DNA of 64,000 nt, taken from Marinifilum caeruleilacunae. GTDB taxonomy: Bacteria > Bacteroidota > Bacteroidia > Bacteroidales > Marinifilaceae. Position numbers and translations under genes: made by a program. The stretch spans positions 63,000-126,999 of the forward strand of contig NZ_RZNH01000008.1 of assembly GCF_013141825.1 (NCBI RefSeq). Direction: 5' to 3'. This document shows, in pieces, positions 45,044 to 64,000 of this stretch. Numbering within the stretch: position 1 is the first letter of the stretch; each line of letters begins with the position of its first letter. Under the pieces are notes generated by a model, which was not told the origin of the DNA, made no database searches, and worked only from the letters and a program-made list of their open reading frames with translations.

Positions 45044-46132
45044 ATGTCAAAAAGTATTCAACAAATTCTTGAGCAAGATTCTTTAACAAAAGAAAACATA
45101 ATTCAACTCTTACAATCCAGTGGTGACGATGAAAAGGCCTTATTTGCTAAATCATCGGAAATCAAGCTAAAATATATCGGAAAGAATGTATACTTCCGTG
45201 GATTGGTTGAATTCTCAAACATCTGCAAAAAAGATTGTTTATACTGCGGTATCAGGGCAGGCAACAAAAACGTAGACCGTTACGACATTGCAGATGAAGA
45301 AATACTAAAAGCGGCAAAATTTGCTTACGACAACAATTATGGATCTGTTGTTCTTCAATCGGGAGAAAGATCTGATAAGCAATTTGTTGATCGGATTGAG
45401 AATCTTTTAAAAGAAATTAAGAAGCTTAGCAATAACGAATTGGGAATCACCATTTCTCTGGGCGAGCAAACAAAAGAAACCTATCAGCGTTGGTACGATG
45501 CTGGAGCTCACCGTTACCTGTTGCGCATTGAATCGAGCAATCGTGAATTGTATGAGAAAATTCACCCACAGAATGAAAACCATGCTCACGATACAAGGCT
45601 TGCATGCCTAAAAAGCTTGCAGGATATAGGCTACCAAACCGGCACTGGTGTTATGGTTGGGATTCCATTTCAAACCTATGAAGATTTGGCCAACGACCTG
45701 TTGTTTATGAAAGAATTCGATATCGACATGGTGGGTATGGGCCCCTTTATTGAACATGATGAAACGCCGCTATATGAGCATCGCGACAAATTAATGAGTT
45801 TGAATGATCGCTTTAGGCTGACTCTAAGAATGATTGCAGTATTGCGAATTTTAATGAAAGATATCAATATTGCTTCGGCAACAGCTTTACAGGCAATTGA
45901 CCCATTAGGAAGAGAGAAGGCCTTAAGAATTGGTGCCAACATTATCATGCCAAACATTACTCCAACACAGGAGCGTGCCAATTACCTGTTGTATCAAAAC
46001 AAGCCTTGTATCGACGAAGGAGCGGATGACTGCACAAATTGCATGGAGGCAAGAATCAATATGGCTGATGGCGAAATTGGATACGGACAATGGGGAGATT
46101 CTAAACATTACGCCAACAGAACCAAAAAATAA
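45044..46132 (+). CDS. hydE: [FeFe]-hydrogenase maturase HydE (radical SAM)
   Basis: 362 aa. Radical SAM enzyme that helps to build the 2Fe subcluster of [FeFe] hydrogenase. The SAM-cluster motif C-x3-C-x2-C is in SNICKKDCLYCGIRAGN near residue 60, followed by VVLQSGERSD, the GTGVMVGIPFQTYEDLANDLLF segment and MVGMGPFIEHDETP, all diagnostic of HydE. The C-terminal cysteines (CIDEGADDCTNCMEA) could hold the optional second cluster. It is single, 129 bases ahead of a sensor kinase in the same direction. Confidence 0.95.
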   Translation: MSKSIQQILEQDSLTKENIIQLLQSSGDDEKALFAKSSEIKLKYIGKNVYFRGLVEFSNICKKDCLYCGIRAGNKNVDRYDIADEEILKAAKFAYDNNYGSVVLQSGERSDKQFVDRIENLLKEIKKLSNNELGITISLGEQTKETYQRWYDAGAHRYLLRIESSNRELYEKIHPQNENHAHDTRLACLKSLQDIGYQTGTGVMVGIPFQTYEDLANDLLFMKEFDIDMVGMGPFIEHDETPLYEHRDKLMSLNDRFRLTLRMIAVLRILMKDINIASATALQAIDPLGREKALRIGANIIMPNITPTQERANYLLYQNKPCIDEGADDCTNCMEARINMADGEIGYGQWGDSKHYANRTKK

Positions 46133-50445: not shown

Positions 50446-51900
50446 TTAGAAATATAGGTCGCGCTCCCCTTTTTTTACAAGTTCAAGGCGTTCTTCAAGC
50501 TGTTCTACTTTCTGAACATCCTTTAATTCTTTCTTTTTAATCTCGATTAATTTATAGCCCTTCTCTTTCATTTCAGGCGTACCATAATCCTCAAGATATT
50601 CAGCCAGTGTTAAAATAGCATTCTGCGTACAATATCTTTTAATGAAGCCCGGAACCGAAAATTCCATAAAATGCTCTCCAGTTCTTCCCTTACGGTAACA
50701 AGCCGTACAGAACGATGGTAAGTATTCTTTGTCCAACAACTCGTCAATGACTTCGCCAAGACTTCTTGTATCGCCAATTTCGAATTGCTCGTGATCCAAT
50801 TTCTGTTCTTCGCGAGATTTTTCGGTATATCCACCCAATTGAATATTTGTTCCTGCATCGATTTGGGAAACACCTAAGCGAATCACCTCTTCTCTAATTT
50901 CCTGAGATTCGCGAGCGGTTAAAATCATACCGGTATACGGAACTGCCAATCTTAAAATGGCAACCAATCGGATAAATTCTTCATCGTTCACCTCATATTT
51001 AGGATCGATAGTAGAATCGGAAGCAGCCTTAATTCTTGGGAAAGAAATGGTATGCGGTCCAACATTATAACACGCTTCGAAATGGTTTACGTGACGCACA
51101 AGACCCATTACATCAAATTTCCAGTCATACAATCCGAATAAGGCACCAATTCCAACATCATCGATTAAGGCTTCCTGTGCCCTGTCTAATCCGGTTAAGC
51201 GCCAATCGAAATCCGATTTTTTACCACTAATGTGATATTTGGCGTAAGCTTCGCGATTGTAGGTTTCCTGAAAGATTTGATAGGTACCAATTCCGGCATC
51301 CTTTACTTTTTTATATCCTTCGATATCCAGTGGAGCGGCATTAATGTTTACGCGACGAATTTCTCCATGGCCTGATTTCACTTCATATACGGTTCGAACA
51401 GAATCAGCAATAAAATCGGCATCGTACATTGGGTGTTCACCATACACCAAAATCAATCTCTTCTGCCCATTATCTTCCAGTGCCTTAACATCACTAATAA
51501 TTTGTTTATGTGTAAGGGTGGTACGAATTTGTTTCTTATTCGATGCTCTAAATCCACAATAAGTACAATTATTGGTACACTTGTTTCCAATGTATAGAGG
51601 TGCAAAAATTACAATTCTGTCACCATACACTTTCTCCTTTAGAGTACGAGCACCTTCTTTAATTTCCTCAATCAGTTCAGGATCTTCTGTCTTCAACAAT
51701 ACAGCCGTTTCCTGTAAACTCAGTCTATTCTTATCTAACGACTTTTGAATAATTCGACGAACATTTTCCTTTGATGCATCTGCTTCGTTCAGCATCTCCC
51801 AAATTTCATCTTCATCGATAAAAGGTTTCATCCTCTCATCCTTAATCCGATACTCTTGAGGTTTGTAAATCATTTTCATGTTGTACGCTGTATATCTCAA
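50446..51900 (-). CDS. hydG: [FeFe]-hydrogenase maturase HydG (tyrosine lyase, radical SAM)
   Basis: 484 aa. Splits tyrosine to supply CO and cyanide for the H-cluster. The SAM-cluster motif C-x3-C-x2-C lies in NKCTNNCTYCGFRASNK near residue 100, and the second, C-terminal cluster motif C-x2-C-x22-C begins at SFCTACYRKGRTGEHF near residue 412, exactly the HydG spacing that separates it from ThiH. The first ATG (51900) is used; ATGs at 51879 or 51873 are also possible. It is cotranscribed with the TM1266-type gene. hydF is not present in the window. Confidence 0.96.
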   Translation of the reverse strand: MRYTAYNMKMIYKPQEYRIKDERMKPFIDEDEIWEMLNEADASKENVRRIIQKSLDKNRLSLQETAVLLKTEDPELIEEIKEGARTLKEKVYGDRIVIFAPLYIGNKCTNNCTYCGFRASNKKQIRTTLTHKQIISDVKALEDNGQKRLILVYGEHPMYDADFIADSVRTVYEVKSGHGEIRRVNINAAPLDIEGYKKVKDAGIGTYQIFQETYNREAYAKYHISGKKSDFDWRLTGLDRAQEALIDDVGIGALFGLYDWKFDVMGLVRHVNHFEACYNVGPHTISFPRIKAASDSTIDPKYEVNDEEFIRLVAILRLAVPYTGMILTARESQEIREEVIRLGVSQIDAGTNIQLGGYTEKSREEQKLDHEQFEIGDTRSLGEVIDELLDKEYLPSFCTACYRKGRTGEHFMEFSVPGFIKRYCTQNAILTLAEYLEDYGTPEMKEKGYKLIEIKKKELKDVQKVEQLEERLELVKKGERDLYF

Positions 51901-56545: not shown

Positions 56546-57025
56546 TTACGATTGATACTCTTTGATGATATCTGCTACATCACCAGCAGCAACACGTCCA
56601 TAAACGCGCTCTCCAATGGTAACAACAGGTGCTAAACCACAAGCTCCAACACAACGAAGACAGCTAATAGAGAATTTTCCATCCTCTGTAGTTTCACCCA
56701 CAGGAACATCTAATAAACGCTTAAACTCTTCTAAAACTTTCTCAGCACCTCTTACATAACAAGCGGTTCCCATACAGATAGAAATTGGGAACTCCCCTTT
56801 TGGTACCATAGAGAAGAATGAGTAAAATGTTACTACACCATAAACATGAGCAACAGAAACGTTCAATTCACGAGCAATGATTTCCTGAACCTCTGCAGGC
56901 AGGTAACCAAATGTCTCTTGAGCCTTGTGAAGTACATTAATCAACTCGGCTCCATCATTATCAAATGATTTGCAAATCTCCACAAGTGTATCAACTTTGG
57001 ATTTTGCTAATTTAATTTTTGCCAT
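56546..57025 (-). CDS. hydC: [FeFe] hydrogenase subunit HydC (NuoE-like, 2Fe-2S)
   Basis: 159 aa. Thioredoxin-fold 2Fe-2S subunit like NuoE of complex I: helical N-terminus with LINVLHKAQETFGYLPAEV, then the cluster motif CMGTACYVRG...CLRCVGACGLAP. It links the NADH-handling HydB to the catalytic HydA. An AAGGAG ribosome-binding site lies 8 bases before the ATG. Last gene of the operon. The order hydB-hydA-hydC is that of trimeric, electron-bifurcating-type hydrogenases. Confidence 0.94.
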   Translation of the reverse strand: MAKIKLAKSKVDTLVEICKSFDNDGAELINVLHKAQETFGYLPAEVQEIIARELNVSVAHVYGVVTFYSFFSMVPKGEFPISICMGTACYVRGAEKVLEEFKRLLDVPVGETTEDGKFSISCLRCVGACGLAPVVTIGERVYGRVAAGDVADIIKEYQS

Positions 57026-57079: not shown

Positions 57080-58852
57080 TTATTCAATCTCGATTTCGTT
57101 ACTCTTATCGAAATAATGAGTATGTAACAGTTTATGAGATAATTCACTACATGGCTTACCCAAGAACTCTTCATACAGTTTAATGATGTATGGGTTCTCG
57201 TGCGATTTACGGATTGCCTTACCTTCATCTTCACGATAAAGAGCAGCTGCACGTTTCTTCAGAATTGAAGAATCGCCATGGTGCAATGGCTGACCACCAC
57301 CACCAATACAACCACCAGGACAAGCCATAATTTCGATTGCATGATATTCTGATTTACCATCACGGATATCTTCAAGAAGTTTACGAGCGTTTCCAAGACC
57401 GTGAGCAATACCAATATTAATTGGAAGACCATCGAAATCTACAGTTGCGCTACGGATACCATCCATGCCACGTAAAGCTTCAAAATCAACTTTTTCAAGA
57501 GTTTTACCAGTGTAAACTTCGTATGCAGTACGAGCTGCAGCTTCGATTACACCACCTGTAGCACCAAAAATAACACCAGCACCTGTTGACTCTCCTAAAG
57601 GATTATCAAAATCTTCATCAGCCATAGTGCTTAGGTCCATGTTTGCTTGCTTAATCAAGTTGGCTAACTCACGAGTTGAGATCGAGTAGTTTACATCTGG
57701 ATCTCCATCAACCTTGAACTCATCGCGCTGACACTCGTATTTCTTAGCCAAACAAGGCATGATAGAAACAACGATCATATCTTCACGTTTGATACCCATT
57801 TGCTTCGCCAAATAGTTCTTAGCAATAGGACCAAACATCTGCTGTGGAGAACGAGCTGTAGAAGGGATATCCTTCATATCTGGGAAATGGTGCTCGAAGA
57901 AGTTCACCCAACCCGGACAACATGAAGTTAAGATAGGAAGTTTTACGTCCTTATCTCCATCAAGATGCTTCTGTAAACGCTCTAGCAACTCAGTTCCTTC
58001 CTCCATAATTGTAAGGTCGGCAGCAAAATCAGTATCGAATACTTTATCGAAACCTAAACTGCGTAGTGCGGAAACCATTTTACCAGTTACCAAAGTACCA
58101 GCATCCATTCCGAATTCTTCACCTAAAGCAGCACGAACAGCAGGAGCAGTTTGAACTACAACAGTTTTCTTAGGATCAGCAAGGTCTCTAATCAACTGGT
58201 TTGTGTGATCTTTCTCTGTTAATGCACCAGTTGGACATACTGCCACACACTGACCACAGTACGTACAAGTTGATTTCTCCAAATCCATTTCGAAAGCCGG
58301 AGCTACTACAGATTCAAAACCTCTGTTTACAGCAGAAAGTGCACCTACAGTTTGTACATCGTTACACATGGTTTCACAACGACGACACATGATACACTTA
58401 TCCATATCACGGATAATAGATGGAGAGTAATCTACCTTGTAAGTTGATTGCTCACCTTTGTAGTGTAATTCGCGAACGCCAAACTGGTGTGCCATAGTCT
58501 GTAAATCACAGTTACCTGATTTAGCACAAACCAAACAATCGAATGGGTGATCAGAAAGCATCAACTCCATTACAGTTTTACGTGCATTTAATACTCTCAT
58601 GTTGTGAGTATTAATCACCATTCCTTCTTCACATTTTGAGTTACAAGAAGGCGCTAAGTTACGACGTCCTTCAACCTCAACAACACAAATTCGACATCCG
58701 CCAGGCTTGTGTTCAATGCCCATATCACCCAAGTGCATATAACAAAGCGTTGGGATTTCGATTCCTAACTGCTTTGCAGCTTCATAAATAGTAGTTCCCT
58801 GAGGTACTTCTATTTGTTTATTATCAATGGTTAATTTGATCATTTTTTCCAT
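57080..58852 (-). CDS. hydA: [FeFe] hydrogenase catalytic subunit HydA
   Basis: 590 aa. N-terminal 2Fe-2S domain (CRICVVEVEGRRNLAPSC), a His-Cys 4Fe-4S motif (HPFDCLVCAKSGNCDLQ), two 4Fe-4S sites (CIMCRRCETMCN and CTYCGQCVAVCP), then the H-cluster domain with all three signatures: TSCCPGW (about 310), MPCLAKKYE (about 366) and MACPGGCIGGGGQP (about 508). It ends shortly after the H domain without the extra C-terminal 2Fe-2S seen in Thermotoga HydA. The start at 58852 is fixed by AGGAGG at 58861-58866, 8 bases upstream; the open frame runs further up inside hydB. Confidence 0.97.
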   Translation of the reverse strand: MEKMIKLTIDNKQIEVPQGTTIYEAAKQLGIEIPTLCYMHLGDMGIEHKPGGCRICVVEVEGRRNLAPSCNSKCEEGMVINTHNMRVLNARKTVMELMLSDHPFDCLVCAKSGNCDLQTMAHQFGVRELHYKGEQSTYKVDYSPSIIRDMDKCIMCRRCETMCNDVQTVGALSAVNRGFESVVAPAFEMDLEKSTCTYCGQCVAVCPTGALTEKDHTNQLIRDLADPKKTVVVQTAPAVRAALGEEFGMDAGTLVTGKMVSALRSLGFDKVFDTDFAADLTIMEEGTELLERLQKHLDGDKDVKLPILTSCCPGWVNFFEHHFPDMKDIPSTARSPQQMFGPIAKNYLAKQMGIKREDMIVVSIMPCLAKKYECQRDEFKVDGDPDVNYSISTRELANLIKQANMDLSTMADEDFDNPLGESTGAGVIFGATGGVIEAAARTAYEVYTGKTLEKVDFEALRGMDGIRSATVDFDGLPINIGIAHGLGNARKLLEDIRDGKSEYHAIEIMACPGGCIGGGGQPLHHGDSSILKKRAAALYREDEGKAIRKSHENPYIIKLYEEFLGKPCSELSHKLLHTHYFDKSNEIEIE

Positions 58853-58860
58853 TTTAAGAT

Positions 58861-58866
58861 CCTCCT
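58861..58866 (-). promoter_or_regulatory. Strong ribosome-binding site deciding the hydA start
   Basis: AGGAGG on the minus strand, 8 bases ahead of the ATG at 58852, overlapping the end of hydB. Full Shine-Dalgarno sites are rare in this phylum and in this window. Confidence 0.75.
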
Positions 58867-60659
58867 TACTGAATGCTAATCGCATTAAACTTACATTTCT
58901 CCATACAAGCACCACACTTGATACACTTAGCGGTATCGATAATGTGAGCTTCCTTACGATCTCCGGCAATACAATCAACCGGACAGTTGCGAGCACAAAG
59001 AGTACATCCAACACAAAGCTCAGGATCAATTACATACTGCATTAATGCCTTACACTGACCAGATGGACATTTGTGTTCCTCAACGTGAGCGATATACTCA
59101 TCATAGAAGTTTTCGATTGTAGAAAGAACAGGGTTTGGTGAAGTCTGTCCTAAACCACAAAGAGAAGTATCTTTAATTACAGTACTTAAGTTTCTTAACA
59201 AGTCAAGATCTTCTTTCGTACCTTTTCCTTCGGTAATTTTATCCAACAATTCGTACAAACGCTTGTTACCTACACGACATGGAGTACACTTACCACATGA
59301 TTCTTCTACAGTAAAGTCAAGGTAGAATTTCGCAACAGAAACCATACAGTCATCTTCATCCATTACGATCATACCACCCGATCCCATCATAGAACCTACA
59401 GCAAGAAGGTTATCAAAATCGATTGGAGTATCAAGGTGTGCTTCAGTTAAACAACCACCTGATGGACCACCGGTTTGAACCGCCTTAAATTTCTTTCCAT
59501 CTTTGATACCACCACCAATTTCGTAAATTACTTCGCGAAGAGTAGTACCCATTGGAACCTCGATCAAACCAACGTTATTGATTTTACCTGCAAGAGCAAA
59601 TACTTTTGTTCCTGTAGATTTTTCAGTACCAATTTTGTTGAACCAGTTTGCACCTTTGTTAATGATAACCGGAATGTTCGCAAATGTTTCAACATTGTTC
59701 ACGTTTGTAGGTTTTCCGTTGTAACCAGACTCAGCTGGGAATGGAGGCTTTACAGTTGGCTCACCACGAAGACCTTCCATAGAGTGGATCAAAGCAGTTT
59801 CCTCACCACATACGAAAGCACCAGCTCCATAACGCATTTCAACATCGAAGTTGAAACCTGAACCCATAATGTCGTTACCTAACAAACCGTATTCTCTGGC
59901 TTGTTTAATAGCTACTTTCAAACGATCAATCGCAAGAGGATACTCAGCACGGATATAGATTAAACCTTTATCTGCACCCATTGTGTAACCACAAATTGCC
60001 ATAGCTTCCAACACAGAGTGTGGATCTCCCTCAAGGATAGAACGGTCCATAAATGCTCCTGGGTCACCCTCATCGGCATTACAAACCACGTATTTCTGAT
60101 CGGCGTCATTTTTAGATGCAAATTCCCACTTCAAACCAGTTGGGAAACCTCCACCTCCTCGTCCACGAAGACCAGATTCTTTAATTTCATTAATTACTGA
60201 CTGAGGAGTCATTTCTGACAAACATTTACCAAGGGCTGCATAACCTTCAGTAGCAATGTATTCGTCAATATTTTCAGGGTTAATAAAACCACAGTTACGC
60301 AACGCGATACGAATCTGCTTCTTATAGAAACCCATGTTTTTAGAATCACTAATCACTTCCTTTTTATCAGGATCGGTGTAAAGCAAACGCATTACCTTAC
60401 GACCTTTAACGATGTGTTCTTCTACAAGTTCTTCTGCATCTTCAGGCTTCACCTCAATGTAGAAGGTATTATCAGGAAGAATTTTTACGATAGGTCCTTT
60501 CTCACAAAATCCAAAGCAACCTGTCATTACTACCTGAACTTCTTCTTCAAGCCCTTTCGCTTTTAGAGCGTCCTGTAGATTATTTTGAATAGCCTCACTT
60601 GCAGATGCACGACATCCTGTACCGCCACAAATAAGAATATGCATTTTATACTTTTCCAT
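58866..60659 (-). CDS. hydB: [FeFe] hydrogenase subunit HydB (NuoF-like, NADH/FMN)
   Basis: 597 aa. N-terminal thioredoxin-like 2Fe-2S domain (CGGTGCRASAS...GCFGFCEKGP, about 10-95), NuoF core with GLRGRGGGGFPTGLKWEF for NADH/FMN binding and ESCGKCTPCRVG for a 4Fe-4S cluster (about 455), and a C-terminal pair of 4Fe-4S motifs (CVGCTLCARNCP and CIKCGACMEKCK). This is the complete HydB layout of NAD-linked bifurcating hydrogenases, where it exchanges electrons with NADH and ferredoxin. The hydA ATG begins 13 bases after its stop. Confidence 0.96.
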   Translation of the reverse strand: MEKYKMHILICGGTGCRASASEAIQNNLQDALKAKGLEEEVQVVMTGCFGFCEKGPIVKILPDNTFYIEVKPEDAEELVEEHIVKGRKVMRLLYTDPDKKEVISDSKNMGFYKKQIRIALRNCGFINPENIDEYIATEGYAALGKCLSEMTPQSVINEIKESGLRGRGGGGFPTGLKWEFASKNDADQKYVVCNADEGDPGAFMDRSILEGDPHSVLEAMAICGYTMGADKGLIYIRAEYPLAIDRLKVAIKQAREYGLLGNDIMGSGFNFDVEMRYGAGAFVCGEETALIHSMEGLRGEPTVKPPFPAESGYNGKPTNVNNVETFANIPVIINKGANWFNKIGTEKSTGTKVFALAGKINNVGLIEVPMGTTLREVIYEIGGGIKDGKKFKAVQTGGPSGGCLTEAHLDTPIDFDNLLAVGSMMGSGGMIVMDEDDCMVSVAKFYLDFTVEESCGKCTPCRVGNKRLYELLDKITEGKGTKEDLDLLRNLSTVIKDTSLCGLGQTSPNPVLSTIENFYDEYIAHVEEHKCPSGQCKALMQYVIDPELCVGCTLCARNCPVDCIAGDRKEAHIIDTAKCIKCGACMEKCKFNAISIQ

Positions 60660-60676: not shown

Positions 60677-61072
60677 TTAGTTGTCAATAGTTTTGTAGTT
60701 AACAGGAATAATGCCGTCTACCAATTCGCCTTGTTTGATGTATTTTTCAATCACTTCATCAGCTTTTTTAAGATCAACATCTCCAAAAACAACAGGCTCT
60801 TTACCTGGAATTGTAACTTCGATAGTAGGTTCTGCATAACAGTATCCCATACAACCTGTTTGAGTTACAATTGTACTAATACCTCTTTTGGCTGTAGCTT
60901 CAATTAGAAACTCCATTACCTCTTTTGCTCCCGATGCGATACCACAAGTTGCCATACCAACTTTAATCTGCACCTGAGCTTCCGGATCGTTGCTCTTCTC
61001 CCTAAGATCCATCTTTGCATGCAGCTCTTCTTTTATCTTCTTCAGATCTGCAAGGGATTTAACTTTTGCCAT
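60677..61072 (-). CDS. Thioredoxin-like 2Fe-2S ferredoxin protein (HydD-like)
   Basis: 131 aa. A lone 2Fe-2S thioredoxin-fold protein: VKVGMATCGIASGAKEV-like first half-motif (IKVGMATCGIAS) and TGCMGYCYAEP second half-motif. It is like the front domain of HydB, and likely an extra electron carrier or subunit of the hydrogenase. Related small proteins are encoded in other bifurcating-hydrogenase operons and some are called HydD; the name is used here by position. 17 bases before hydB. Confidence 0.85.
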   Translation of the reverse strand: MAKVKSLADLKKIKEELHAKMDLREKSNDPEAQVQIKVGMATCGIASGAKEVMEFLIEATAKRGISTIVTQTGCMGYCYAEPTIEVTIPGKEPVVFGDVDLKKADEVIEKYIKQGELVDGIIPVNYKTIDN

Positions 61073-61111: not shown

Positions 61112-61648
61112 TTATAATGTGTTTAGGTTCTCTTTAATCATTTCCTTCAAGTATTGCATGATATTCGGATCTGAAACCGGCATACCATCCAAAACTTCTT
61201 TTACTTCTTTTGTATCAAAAACATACTCTCCTTCGTCGGTGATATGCTGATAAAAAAAGTCCATCTCGGGATTTGCACCCACCAACAAAACCATGGTTCC
61301 TGCAATGTCTCCTAAGCTAGGTCGATCAAGGTGTTTGTGAGAAAAAATTGCTTCCAACTCAGTCCCAACTCCTTCTTTCGAACTAATCTCCATTTTCCCT
61401 CCTGTCATTTCTGCATTTTGCTTTAGCAATGACAAGCCCAAACCAACCTTTCGGGTTGTTCTGGTAGTAAAAAATGGATCAATGGCTTTTGCCAATACCT
61501 CTTCGGACATTCCAAAGCCATTATCTTTTATTGCAATTGAAAACAGGTCGTCTTTTACACTTTCCTTAATTTTCAATTCAACCAAAGATGCTTCGGCTCT
61601 TACCGAATTCTGGATAATATCCATAATATGCATCGACAAATCTTTCAT
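61112..61648 (-). CDS. HATPase-domain protein linked to hydrogenase genes
   Basis: 178 aa. GHKL ATPase fold as in histidine or anti-sigma kinases: N box DIIQNSVRAEAS, G1 DNGFGMSEE, F-box-like FFTTRTTRKVG and G2 GLGLSLLKQNAEMTGG. There is no HisKA phospho-acceptor domain and no sensor domain; the last 60 residues form an unassigned tail (VFDTKEVKEVLDGMPVSDPN). Its ATG overlaps the stop of the PHP gene (ATGA), so the two are translationally coupled. It probably acts as part of a signalling unit with the neighbouring PHP, DRTGG and H-cluster proteins (inference). Confidence 0.88.
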   Translation of the reverse strand: MKDLSMHIMDIIQNSVRAEASLVELKIKESVKDDLFSIAIKDNGFGMSEEVLAKAIDPFFTTRTTRKVGLGLSLLKQNAEMTGGKMEISSKEGVGTELEAIFSHKHLDRPSLGDIAGTMVLLVGANPEMDFFYQHITDEGEYVFDTKEVKEVLDGMPVSDPNIMQYLKEMIKENLNTL

Positions 61649-62388
61649 TCTTCTATTTCAATTTTTCGGCCCTCTTCCGACCTTAATGCCTTTCTCACTT
61701 CCTCGAAACTTAAATCTTCCATAAAGAAGTTTGTCCAGGCATTTCCTATATTTTCTACATAATGAGCATCCGAACTTTTAATAAAGCTGTATTTGCTCAA
61801 ATACTTATTCTTTTTTAGGAACTCCTCTTTTGTTACATGATGCGAAAGTTCCAAGGCATCAACATTCAAATCGGGCGGCAAAAAGCCTAACTGACTAATG
61901 ATGCTGTTCATCATTTTATTAATATGAGCCGGAATGAACAGTCCATTTAATTCATGAACTTTACTTTCTATTTTCTCAATACTCTGATTCAATCCTGATA
62001 TTAAGAGACATTCTATTTCATCTACAATCTCTTCTTTCTCATTTACCACTACCTGATATCCGAATTTATTTTCATCATTAGGTATTTTGGGCAAATGCTG
62101 ATTGAGGTATTCCTGAAATTCCGAAAGTTTATCCTCATCCTCGAAAAAGCACAAGCAATGCGCTTCCTCTTTGGTGGTTACCTCGGCTCCCATCAGAACC
62201 ATAATTCCTTCCTTTGCAGCCAATTCCTTAATAAGCGGTGCATGTAAGGTTGAATTGTGGTCCGTTATTCCCAATATGTCAATTCCACGTTCTTTGGCTT
62301 TTTGAACAATATTTACCGGGCTCATCTCCAGGTCACCACAGGGAGATAAAACAGTGTGCGTATGCAAATCTGCCCGATATTTCTTCAT
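61645..62388 (-). CDS. PHP-domain phosphoesterase-like protein
   Basis: 247 aa. PHP metal-binding motifs are complete: DLHTHTVLSPCGD (about 7-19), GITDHNSTLHA, MGAEVTTKEEAHCLCFF, PAHINK, LELSHH and SSDAHYVENIG. Such domains bind three metals and hydrolyse phosphoesters; the substrate of this subfamily is unknown. One base separates it from the DRTGG gene and it overlaps the HATPase gene by four bases. Homologous arrangements with hydrogenase genes occur in clostridia. Confidence 0.9.
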   Translation of the reverse strand: MKKYRADLHTHTVLSPCGDLEMSPVNIVQKAKERGIDILGITDHNSTLHAPLIKELAAKEGIMVLMGAEVTTKEEAHCLCFFEDEDKLSEFQEYLNQHLPKIPNDENKFGYQVVVNEKEEIVDEIECLLISGLNQSIEKIESKVHELNGLFIPAHINKMMNSIISQLGFLPPDLNVDALELSHHVTKEEFLKKNKYLSKYSFIKSSDAHYVENIGNAWTNFFMEDLSFEEVRKALRSEEGRKIEIEE

Positions 62389-62389
62389 T

Positions 62390-62731
62390 CTACTTTGCCT
62401 GATTTATAATTTCAAATAACTTTCCAGTTAGTTCAAATGCTTCTTCTTCCGAAGATAAGATTGGAATTCCTTCCTCATTGCTTTGCTCAGCTGCATCTTC
62501 TTCAGGTTCATATCCTTTCACCAAAACAATAGCAGCCAGTTCTTTTAATGAAGCAATGGCCATAATGTTCTTATGCGTTTGCAATGTCACCCAAATGTGG
62601 TTTTCATCAGCATTTCCCATTACATCGCTTAATAAATCCGAAGTATAACCTCCTTCAATTTCACGATTCAATCCATTTGCTCCCGAACAAACTTTCAATC
62701 CTAATTTTTCAACTATATCTTGTACTGTCAT
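62390..62731 (-). CDS. DRTGG-domain protein
   Basis: 113 aa. Matches the DRTGG domain (MTVQDIVEKLGLKVCSGANGL, then GGYTSDLLSDVMGNADENHIWVTLQTHKNIMAI), a small ligand- or partner-binding domain otherwise found in phosphotransacetylase-like and CBS-containing regulators. It is followed by an acidic linker (EPEEDAAEQSNEE). It sits three bases after the H-cluster-domain gene and one base before the PHP gene. Confidence 0.85.
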   Translation of the reverse strand: MTVQDIVEKLGLKVCSGANGLNREIEGGYTSDLLSDVMGNADENHIWVTLQTHKNIMAIASLKELAAIVLVKGYEPEEDAAEQSNEEGIPILSSEEEAFELTGKLFEIINQAK

Positions 62732-62734
62732 GAT

Positions 62735-64000
62735 CTATCCGTTTAGTTTCTTTTTCTCAAACCTGCTTTTTCCCCATGTGTCTTCCGAAATATCAAAAGA
62801 TTCATTTGGTGAAATCAGACCTTCTTTGGTCAACATTTTTTGAAGAAAAACACATTGAGTCATTTTAGCATTTCCCTGAACCACATCTTCGGCCAAAGCC
62901 TGACATCGTGGTGCTCCACAGGCTCCACAATCGATTCCGGGTAAAACTTTCATAATGCGATTTATTTTCTTCATCTTCTTCATGGCCACCATCATATCCT
63001 CATCTAAACTAAGTATCGATCGTGGTTCCACTTTATTAATTGAAATATTTTCCTGTAAATATGATTTGTACAGGTCAATCTCTCTTTCTGGCAAAATCAT
63101 TGGCTTATTCCTATGATACCAGGCGGCTCGTTTTCTCAATCTTTCAATGGCCAAAAAACGATTCTCCGTTGCCAAAACACCTCCTGCACATGAATGGTCA
63201 CAAGCGCGAAGTTCAAGGAAATCTACATCAGTGATCTCCTCGTTCTCTAATTTTTCCAACACTTCAATTACGTTATGGATCTCATCGATTGCCAAACAAC
63301 GTCCCGAATATCTCGCTGCTTCACCATTAGTTAATGTCCAGCCAATGCTTCTGCGCGACATGTGTATGTTCTCAGGATATTTCTTTGTCTCCTTTTTGTT
63401 GTTTTTGATACTCAACAACACCTTATTGTAAATGAAATCCATATTGATTACACCATCAATCAGTGAAACCTCTTCTCCAACAGGACTCTTTACAGCAGCA
63501 ATTTTAGCAGCACAAGGAGTTACATAAAATATCCCTATTTCTTCTTGTTTATAACCTTTATCTTCTAACTTCTTACGATAAAACTGGGCTGATATATCAA
63601 TTACAGGTTTTAACTGAATGATATGATCAACCAAAGCGGGGAATTTAACCTGTATTAACCTTACGATAGCAGGGCAAAAGCTTGAAATAAATGGCCTTTC
63701 CTGGTAGTGCTTGTGCATGTATTTCTTTGTCGAATCAATCAGTACATCCACAGCTCCGTCTACTTCGAATACATGGGTAAATCCCAGATCTTTAATCTCG
63801 TTGTAAATTTGCACTTCCGAAACATCATCAGGAAACTGTCCTAATAAAACCGTTGGCAATAGTGCAACTCTTTGTTTGTAATTAAAGATTTGAGTAAAAT
63901 CATCCTGCTCAACAATGATTGCATTTACCGGACAGGCTTTAAGGCACTCTCCGCAATCAACACAGGCATTTTTATTGATATCTGCAGTACCATTTTTAAC
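62735..64000 (-). CDS. HydS-like H-cluster-domain iron-sulfur protein (5' end beyond the window)
   Basis: At least 421 aa; the frame stays open to the right edge, so the N-terminus is missing and an in-frame TTG at 63859 is not the start. The visible part begins with a 4Fe-4S motif CVDCGECLKACP, then an [FeFe]-hydrogenase large-subunit-type domain, then an Fe-S domain GIDCGACGAPRC near the C-terminus. H-cluster motifs are altered: SSFCPAI for TSCCPGW, TPCAAK for MPCxxK, and ACDHSCAGG for ACxxGCxxGG. The four ligand cysteines are kept, but the proton-relay cysteine is Phe. This is the pattern of sensory (group C-like) hydrogenases, not of a main H2 enzyme. No PAS domain is fused. First visible gene of the operon. 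Confidence 0.88.
   Translation of the reverse strand, partial: VKNGTADINKNACVDCGECLKACPVNAIIVEQDDFTQIFNYKQRVALLPTVLLGQFPDDVSEVQIYNEIKDLGFTHVFEVDGAVDVLIDSTKKYMHKHYQERPFISSFCPAIVRLIQVKFPALVDHIIQLKPVIDISAQFYRKKLEDKGYKQEEIGIFYVTPCAAKIAAVKSPVGEEVSLIDGVINMDFIYNKVLLSIKNNKKETKKYPENIHMSRRSIGWTLTNGEAARYSGRCLAIDEIHNVIEVLEKLENEEITDVDFLELRACDHSCAGGVLATENRFLAIERLRKRAAWYHRNKPMILPEREIDLYKSYLQENISINKVEPRSILSLDEDMMVAMKKMKKINRIMKVLPGIDCGACGAPRCQALAEDVVQGNAKMTQCVFLQKMLTKEGLISPNESFDISEDTWGKSRFEKKKLNG

Follow-up and report, generated by a model that had tools for sequence, protein, structure and literature searches.

Ahead of the hydrogenase genes hydDBAC of Marinifilum caeruleilacunae a few closely packed genes encode a protein with a hydrogenase-type H-cluster domain, a DRTGG protein, a PHP phosphoesterase and a GHKL ATPase, and the question is what such a set does there and whether it serves the hydrogenase. 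The genes are found at positions 61112 to 64000 of the stretch that was analysed, 64,000 nucleotides of contig NZ_RZNH01000008.1 (positions 63,000 to 126,999), which is referred to below as the window. An earlier note, made from the sequence alone, had taken them for a four-gene unit that signals H2 or redox state. The comparison across genomes places them in a unit of six genes, and both this unit and its tie to HydABC can be stated with high confidence.

All four open reading frames (ORFs) are present on the minus strand; 3 bases and 1 base lie between the first three, the last two overlap by the 4 bases ATGA, and hydDBAC comes next, as the earlier note had described. The domain names that it gave (H-cluster, DRTGG, PHP, GHKL ATPase) agree with a Pfam profile search, in which the unit proteins matched DRTGG, PHP, HATPase_c and Fe_hyd_lg_C/FeS. 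The four genes are real, but the full unit consists of six genes in two modules, two of them outside the window. The window edge (64000) cuts the gene of the H-cluster protein, here called HydS, and the operon continues upstream in the assembly stretch L003 (L003 position + 50000 = window position). The full order is DRTGG1 - HATPase1 - HydS - DRTGG2 - PHP - HATPase2 - hydD - hydB - hydA - hydC, all on the minus strand. DRTGG1 (115 amino acids, L003 14528-14875) and HATPase1 (137 amino acids, L003 14104-14517) are the two outside genes; 10 bases separate them from each other and 4 bases separate HATPase1 from HydS (454 amino acids, L003 12735-14099, of which 62735..64000 of the window is the 3' part). 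Then follow DRTGG2 (62390..62731, 113 amino acids), PHP (61645..62388, 247 amino acids) and HATPase2 (61112..61648, 178 amino acids). The ATPase that the note had called an orphan is HATPase2, while the ATPase adjoining the sensor is another, SpoIIAB-like protein encoded outside the window.

Two [4Fe-4S] motifs at the N-terminus of HydS are followed by an H domain and then by a Cx2Cx4Cx16C cluster at the C-terminus (CGACGAPRC..C, the dots standing for 16 residues; Pfam FeS PF04060 at 386-418). No PAS domain was found in the protein among the 17 Pfam families scanned. In a 37-row IQ-TREE phylogeny the group D sequences of Clostridia, the Bacteroidota rows and two further loci, L080 and L081, come together at 100/100, with groups A, B and C apart; the groups were assigned from domain content and from L155 of Thermoanaerobacterium, the published TamHydS itself being outside the tree, and the group C sequence L084 forms a long branch. 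On these grounds the H-cluster protein of the window is placed in group D (M2e), the putative sensory [FeFe]-hydrogenases, within a Bacteroidota branch whose pocket is altered. In what we take to be the CpI numbering of Cys299, Lys358 and the other pocket positions, it has F, T and R at 299, 353 and 497, replacing C, M and M, and it keeps the cubane cysteines C300, C355, C499 and C503 as well as K358. Among group D sequences, leaving out 12 other Fe-S proteins below 450 bits, 41/41 Bacteroidota and 81/81 Clostridia-type rows retain the complete set of four cubane cysteines, and 40/41 and 80/81 retain Lys358; L081 has lost it. Position 299 is Phe in 39/41 Bacteroidota and Ala in 80/81 Clostridia-type rows, and position 497 is Arg in 41/41 Bacteroidota and mostly Asn or Leu (58) in the 81 Clostridia-type rows. 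The H-cluster had been called degenerate; this holds for Cys299 and the framing methionines, which are lost as in other group D proteins, but not for the cubane cysteines and Lys358.

Gene neighbourhoods were compared in the best 80 of 548 named-genome loci, which belong to Clostridia, Coriobacteria/Atopobiaceae and one spirochaete; the scan favours conserved proteins, and the rates are not unbiased. A neighbour was counted when it lay on the same strand within a set distance, and L094 and L151 are scored as lacking HATPase1 though one is visible. Of assessable loci, HydS has HATPase1 as a neighbour in 77/79, DRTGG1 in 76/78, DRTGG2 in 74/78, PHP in 73/77, HATPase2 in 52/72 and hydB in 46/62. 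Among 17 long Bacteroidota loci the corresponding numbers are HATPase1 17, DRTGG1 17, DRTGG2 14, PHP 14, HATPase2 14 and hydB 12. The gene hydC is less fixed in position: among the 80 named loci it precedes HydS in 33, follows it in 17 and is seen on neither side in 30. Within the window's order, 85 of 295 genomes have HydS at E <= 1e-30; class-wide, 42 of 198 genomes have any match at E <= 0.001, strong in two only.

The unit consists of module A (DRTGG1-HATPase1-HydS) and module B (DRTGG2-PHP-HATPase2). The modules occur in Bacteroidota, Clostridia, Coriobacteria and a spirochaete, mostly together with hydABCD, and because the arrangement recurs across phyla it is far beyond chance. Their order can be reversed, as in L072 where module B stands ahead of module A, and they can be separated: in all seven genomes whose HydS locus, as read, has no PHP gene (G198, G315, G377, G343, G412, G489 and G490), PHP is found elsewhere. 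DRTGG2 adjoins this unlinked PHP in 6/7 and HATPase2 in 5/7, the PHP of G412 being at a contig edge; two genomes with HydS at a contig end (G488/L102 and G491/L153) are left out of the count. In G489 and the spirochaete G490 no DRTGG1 is seen at the HydS locus, and the PHP locus has a DRTGG1-type gene instead. The PHP locus of G490 (L227 3910-6234) contains, with DRTGG1 and DRTGG2, a longer HATPase1-type protein of 308 amino acids, a second kinase-like copy separate from the one adjoining HydS. No PHP was found in G371, where HydS is a fragment, G265 or G340.

Some further arrangements were observed. Subdoligranulum L083 has two divergent operons, with HATPase2 inside a hydC-[ATPase]-D-B-A block. 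Parabacteroides distasonis L085 (NZ_OY725779.1) has the six genes in a row and no hydDBAC in the 19 kb shown; gyrA and a TPR gene lie nearby. The record, of 375 kb, is labelled as plasmid, and the presence of gyrA suggests that it is a mislabelled piece of chromosome. In L092-L098, all from Clostridia, a longer gene of 290-312 amino acids is found upstream of DRTGG1 and of the triad in 7/7 loci, additional to the usual PHP; with the PHP profile it scores 148-161 bits, half of what is usual. In L142 (8065-10314) a CheW-like gene is located directly 5' of HATPase1-HydS, a possible link to chemotaxis-type signalling; the DRTGG1-type gene of that genome sits at its PHP locus (L226).

The co-occurrence of the genes was counted in 196 Clostridia genomes, with HydS of group D in 98, PHP in 95 and HATPase2 in 106. 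For the HydS-positive set 4 of 102 genomes (G533, G559, G607, G631) were removed, since the length and E-value of their only match, a weak one in a frame of about 570 amino acids, pointed to group C, and a weak, partial PHP match in G550 was retained. PHP is present in 95/98 HydS-positive and 0/98 HydS-negative genomes (Fisher p ~6e-53, with no correction for shared ancestry), and HATPase2 in 96/98 and 10/98. All 30 Clostridia HATPase2 loci that were fetched are by hydD/hydB (30/30), and HATPase2 is tied more widely to hydrogenase genes than to HydS alone. In the window's order HydA, called with the NCBIfam A6 model at E <= 1e-100, is present in 84/85 HydS-positive and 99/210 HydS-negative genomes (p ~1e-20). 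By these counts HydS is therefore nearly always found with a hydrogenase, and PHP, in Clostridia, only with HydS. Hitch-hiking of genes in an operon is rejected as an explanation, since PHP is kept in the seven genomes where it is unlinked and is missing from all 98 HydS-less Clostridia genomes. The neighbourhood comparison, which the earlier note had named beforehand as a check that could refute it, thus finds a co-occurrence well beyond close relatives, and neighbourhoods and co-occurrence together support its proposal that a conserved unit for H2/redox signalling goes with the hydrogenase.

The partner proteins have the features expected from their domain names. The DRTGG proteins reach the Pfam DRTGG cut-off of 25.2 bits and show the DRTGG fold, DRTGG2 being a single such domain with D32, S35 and N55 invariant; the invariant serine of their SDxxSD-type motif is Ser36 in DRTGG1 and Ser35 in DRTGG2. 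By structure matches the DRTGG2 fold also resembles MurE, LpxD and the DRTGG part of a regulated pyrophosphatase, the fold shared with MurE and LpxD presumably being a nucleotide-binding domain. PHP (Pfam PHP 43.7 bits) has H9, H11, D43, H44, E69, H77, H155, D207 and H209 at 1.00 over 112 rows, nine positions that we take to be metal ligands, and its relatives of solved structure include Endonuclease Q and a 5'-3' exoribonuclease. HATPase1 has the HATPase_c_2 fold (PF13581, 41.4 bits), with E45, N49 of the N-box, D74, G76, G78 and G101-G107 at 1.00 over 120 rows; its N-box and glycine-box residues are assumed to be catalytic positions. The nearest solved structures are SpoIIAB, weakly (E ~1e-4). 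Because it stays below the curated cut-offs (57.3 of 135 bits for SpoIIAB, 22.7 of 145 bits for RsbW), HATPase1 is named SpoIIAB-like and not a member of that family. In L080 and L081 DRTGG1 and HATPase1 are fused as one gene, which points to a direct partnership of the two proteins.

HATPase2 had been described as kinase-like, and its matches point in two directions. Its nearest solved relatives by sequence are histidine-kinase catalytic domains, and histidine kinases rank high in Foldseek, with WalK as the top match, but the longest structural match is MutL, with MutL-type chain matches running to residue 166-170, and no new domain is proposed for its C-terminal part; histidine kinases were not among the 50 structural matches listed with MutL, which does not exclude them. 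No HisKA/DHp domain with a phospho-His was found, as Pfam shows HATPase_c models alone and the 178 amino acids begin at the ATPase core.

The hydrogenase encoded downstream consists of a hydD-like protein (60677..61072, 131 amino acids), a thioredoxin-like [2Fe-2S] ferredoxin by a weak match of 19.0 bits, below the cut-off of 24.8; hydB (NuoF-like; 58866..60659, 597 amino acids); the catalytic subunit hydA (57080..58840), which scores 904 bits with the NCBIfam group A6 model (cut-off 765); and hydC (NuoE-like; 56546..57025, 159 amino acids), all on the minus strand. Left of the operon in the same window are the maturase genes hydE and hydG (45044-46132 on the plus and 50446-51900 on the minus strand), and hydF is found on another contig (C35). 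At the upstream end of the operon a gene of 268 amino acids, by eye with the look of a universal stress protein (L003 15196-16002, plus strand), is divergent to DRTGG1, and the two have a 320-base AT-rich gap in common. The Bacteroidetes-type promoter consensus has 0 matches in L003 against 1.26 expected.

Of the 85 HydS-positive genomes in the window's order, 75 have HydF, counted by eye. In nine genomes that carry HydS none of the maturases HydE, HydF and HydG passes the cut-off. They are G107, G399 and G482 (family f3), G268, G200, G240, G247, G292 and G349, and eight of the nine are 93% complete or more. G292 has a weaker HydG-like match of 189.6 bits (cut-off 312), and G461, of the same genus as G268, has all three maturases. 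In family f3 this absence is a family-level pattern, and by HydF alone this is also seen in f89 (G219, G331, G427). The loci L170-L172, L174, L175, L177 and L179 were read for these genomes, and the HydA L1 and L2 motifs (TSCCPxW, MPCxxKxxE) are intact in 7/7, G247 and G349 being unreadable. The pattern for the third HydA motif is uninformative, as it is unmatched in 3/7 of them and also in one maturase-bearing genome. These genomes may have an apo enzyme, divergent maturases or gaps in their assemblies. With HydA kept there too, the lack of maturases does not decide whether the [2Fe] site is needed by HydS.

How could such a unit work? We favour the explanation that a kinase/DRTGG/phosphoesterase switch carries the signal of HydS to HydABC, which is plausible if somewhat short of probable, and infer the following steps. 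Module A would be the sensing arm and module B the reset and output arm, both serving the electron-bifurcating HydABC(D). H2 or reduced ferredoxin would alter the state of the H-cluster or the N-terminal clusters and thereby the shape of HydS, and this shape would set the activity of HATPase1. HATPase1 would then act as a serine kinase on the DRTGG proteins, with Ser36 of DRTGG1 and Ser35 of DRTGG2 as candidate sites, while PHP would take off the phosphate or destroy a nucleotide bound to DRTGG. HATPase2, encoded with hydD-B-A, would read the DRTGG state and gate the amount, assembly or activity of HydABC. Taken by itself, the kinase/DRTGG/PHP chemistry is doubtful. It is also unlikely, though conceivable, that the genes make up an altogether new circuit, in which a hydrogenase-fold sensor and a SpoIIAB-like kinase would work with DRTGG phospho-acceptors in place of STAS, PHP in place of PP2C and a GHKL output; this would then be the missing group D pathway in several phyla, partly moved onto a non-hydrogenase, bifurcating-type complex in two genomes.

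Several observations weigh against the favoured explanation. The invariant DRTGG serine may instead bind a ligand, and HATPase2, which is also present without HydS in the 10 HydS-negative Clostridia genomes, may be either kinase-like or a switch. The co-occurrence counts take no account of shared ancestry, and both genomes with a strong class-wide HydS match (the source genome and G107) are from the window's order. When 818 neighbour ORFs were clustered no extra neighbour family was found in more than 12 of 100 loci, and STAS, sigma-factor or PP2C genes were not seen recurring in the 28 families shown, as judged from sequence starts. Finally, L080 and L081 hold HydS and DRTGG proteins with no PHP in either genome, and their genes precede NuoE, NuoF, a NuoG/molybdopterin-type protein and an Nfn-like pair instead of a hydrogenase. 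These loci (L080 2779-12631, L081 1-11429) contain DRTGG2, the DRTGG1-HATPase1 fusion and a divergent HydS, and the sensor seems to have moved there onto a non-hydrogenase electron-transfer complex.

HATPase2 might alternatively be an ATP-driven switch on HydABC/HydD that is licensed by HydS and the DRTGG/PHP proteins according to the redox state, a gate at the level of assembly or after translation with no chain leading to transcription. Its place with hydD/hydB in both HydS-positive and HydS-negative genomes would suit such a role, which we nevertheless regard as rather unlikely: HydABC from other hosts functions without these genes, a kinase-like ATPase, DRTGG proteins and a phosphoesterase seem more than assembly requires, HATPase2 is closest by sequence to histidine-kinase domains, and the six genes occur without adjoining hydDBAC in P. 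distasonis L085 and in L074 and L077. Another possibility concerns the input, as the sensor could read the redox state of ferredoxin/NADH and not H2, with the [2Fe] half of the Bacteroidota H-cluster inactive or absent. The Phe299 and Arg497 of Bacteroidota, set against the Ala and Asn/Leu of the Clostridia type, are consistent with this, as are the loss of Lys358 in L081, the non-hydrogenase complex adjoining L080/L081 and the nine HydS genomes in which no maturase passes the cut-off. It is made distinctly unlikely by the cubane cysteines (41/41) and Lys358 (40/41) of the Bacteroidota rows and by the near confinement of HydS to HydA genomes; HydA L1/L2 is kept in the maturase-less genomes, so that the lack of maturases tells nothing particular about HydS, and the group D enzyme TamHydS turns over H2 according to the accessible part of its description (PMC13104023).

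A relay by a small molecule, in which PHP hydrolyses a nucleotide bound by DRTGG and no protein is phosphorylated, agrees with the nucleic-acid and nucleotide enzymes among the PHP relatives and with the likeness of the DRTGG2 fold to MurE, LpxD and the pyrophosphatase, and the ATPases could be the source of the nucleotide or its sensor. It is nonetheless very improbable, as there is no synthase in view among the recurrent neighbours and the fusion of DRTGG1 to the SpoIIAB-like ATPase in two genomes fits a kinase and its substrate better.

The switch favoured here can be compared with systems already described; the papers cited were accessible in part, and statements about them apply to the accessible text. 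Group D is also termed M2e, and a histidine/serine kinase often stands between sensory enzymes and the bifurcating enzyme (PMC3561251), and group D HydS has been found upstream of a bifurcating hydrogenase, flanked by a histidine-kinase-like ATPase and an 'AraC' gene (PMC8163306). TamHydS of Thermoanaerobacter mathranii resembles the window HydS in this position and in the adjacent ATPase (PMC8163306), and also in belonging to the clade of its relative L155, having the C-terminal Cx2Cx4Cx16C, and lacking a PAS domain and Cys299. Unlike the TamHydS type, the Bacteroidota branch has Phe299 and Arg497. The residues R30, R32, K35, K58, D378, C379, S384, E392, D393, D403 and C404 named for TamHydS (PMC13104023) are matched by L155 in a comparison by hand with a shift, an exact numbering check having found no frame, and R42 is Lys. 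By the same kind of comparison the window HydS keeps R30, E392, D393 and D378, has Lys at 32 and differs at K35, K58, S384 and D403.

The other flank of TamHydS is the AraC gene (PMC8163306), whereas L155 has a DRTGG protein there. An AraC regulator as the output was considered and rejected, as the gene after HydS in L155 is DRTGG2 and contains no AraC domain by Pfam; we infer that the AraC gene of that paper is this DRTGG protein. A set of DRTGG, PHP and second ATPase is absent from the accessible description of TamHydS (PMC8163306), and no DRTGG or PHP partners of a sensory hydrogenase were found in the literature searched. As far as that search goes, group D HydS with a neighbouring ATPase is published and the DRTGG/PHP partner set appears to be new; the statement of the earlier note that the role of the set is not established therefore holds for the DRTGG/PHP part, but not for the HydS and kinase-like neighbourhood.

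The group C (M2f) proteins HfsB, R. albus HydS and TmHydS are, like HydS, H-cluster-like sensors tied to hydrogenase genes. They are found near a serine phosphatase (HfsC) or a Ser/Thr kinase, and deletion of hfsB raises the ethanol yield (PMC11837493, PMC5707799, PMC6776011). They differ from the window HydS in having a PAS domain, in forming a separate clade and in their partners, which are not DRTGG/PHP in the accessible descriptions. Histidine-kinase-like ATPases that are not subunits have also been noted among hyd genes, as HydE of A. woodii and the hisK beside A. mobile HydABCSL (PMC3315566, PMC9304861), and Cthe_0339 is annotated as histidine kinase within Cthe_0338-0342 (PMC3990059). 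The position of HATPase2 matches that of A. woodii HydE (hydC-E-D-B-A), a likeness by gene order and description alone. In the accessible text of the papers on these three proteins no link is drawn to HydS, DRTGG or PHP genes. The partner switch of SpoIIAB/RsbW with SpoIIAA/SpoIIE would be analogous in its kinase, small partner and phosphatase, HATPase1 being nearest to SpoIIAB. It differs in that no recurrent STAS partner or sigma factor was seen among the neighbours here; the places of STAS and PP2C would be taken by DRTGG and PHP.

Group D [FeFe]-hydrogenases are models of H2 sensing. A recent study argues that the signal is not a redox change of the C-terminal cluster, and it calls the identification of HydS interaction partners critical (PMC13104023, 2026). 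A partner set that is co-inherited across phyla can now be named, and with it the question of signal transfer becomes testable. If the proposed switch is true, it would show how many anaerobes tune their H2 production to the level of H2 or to the redox level, which bears on methane formation and on fuel fermentation, and the DRTGG and PHP domains would have gained one more use.

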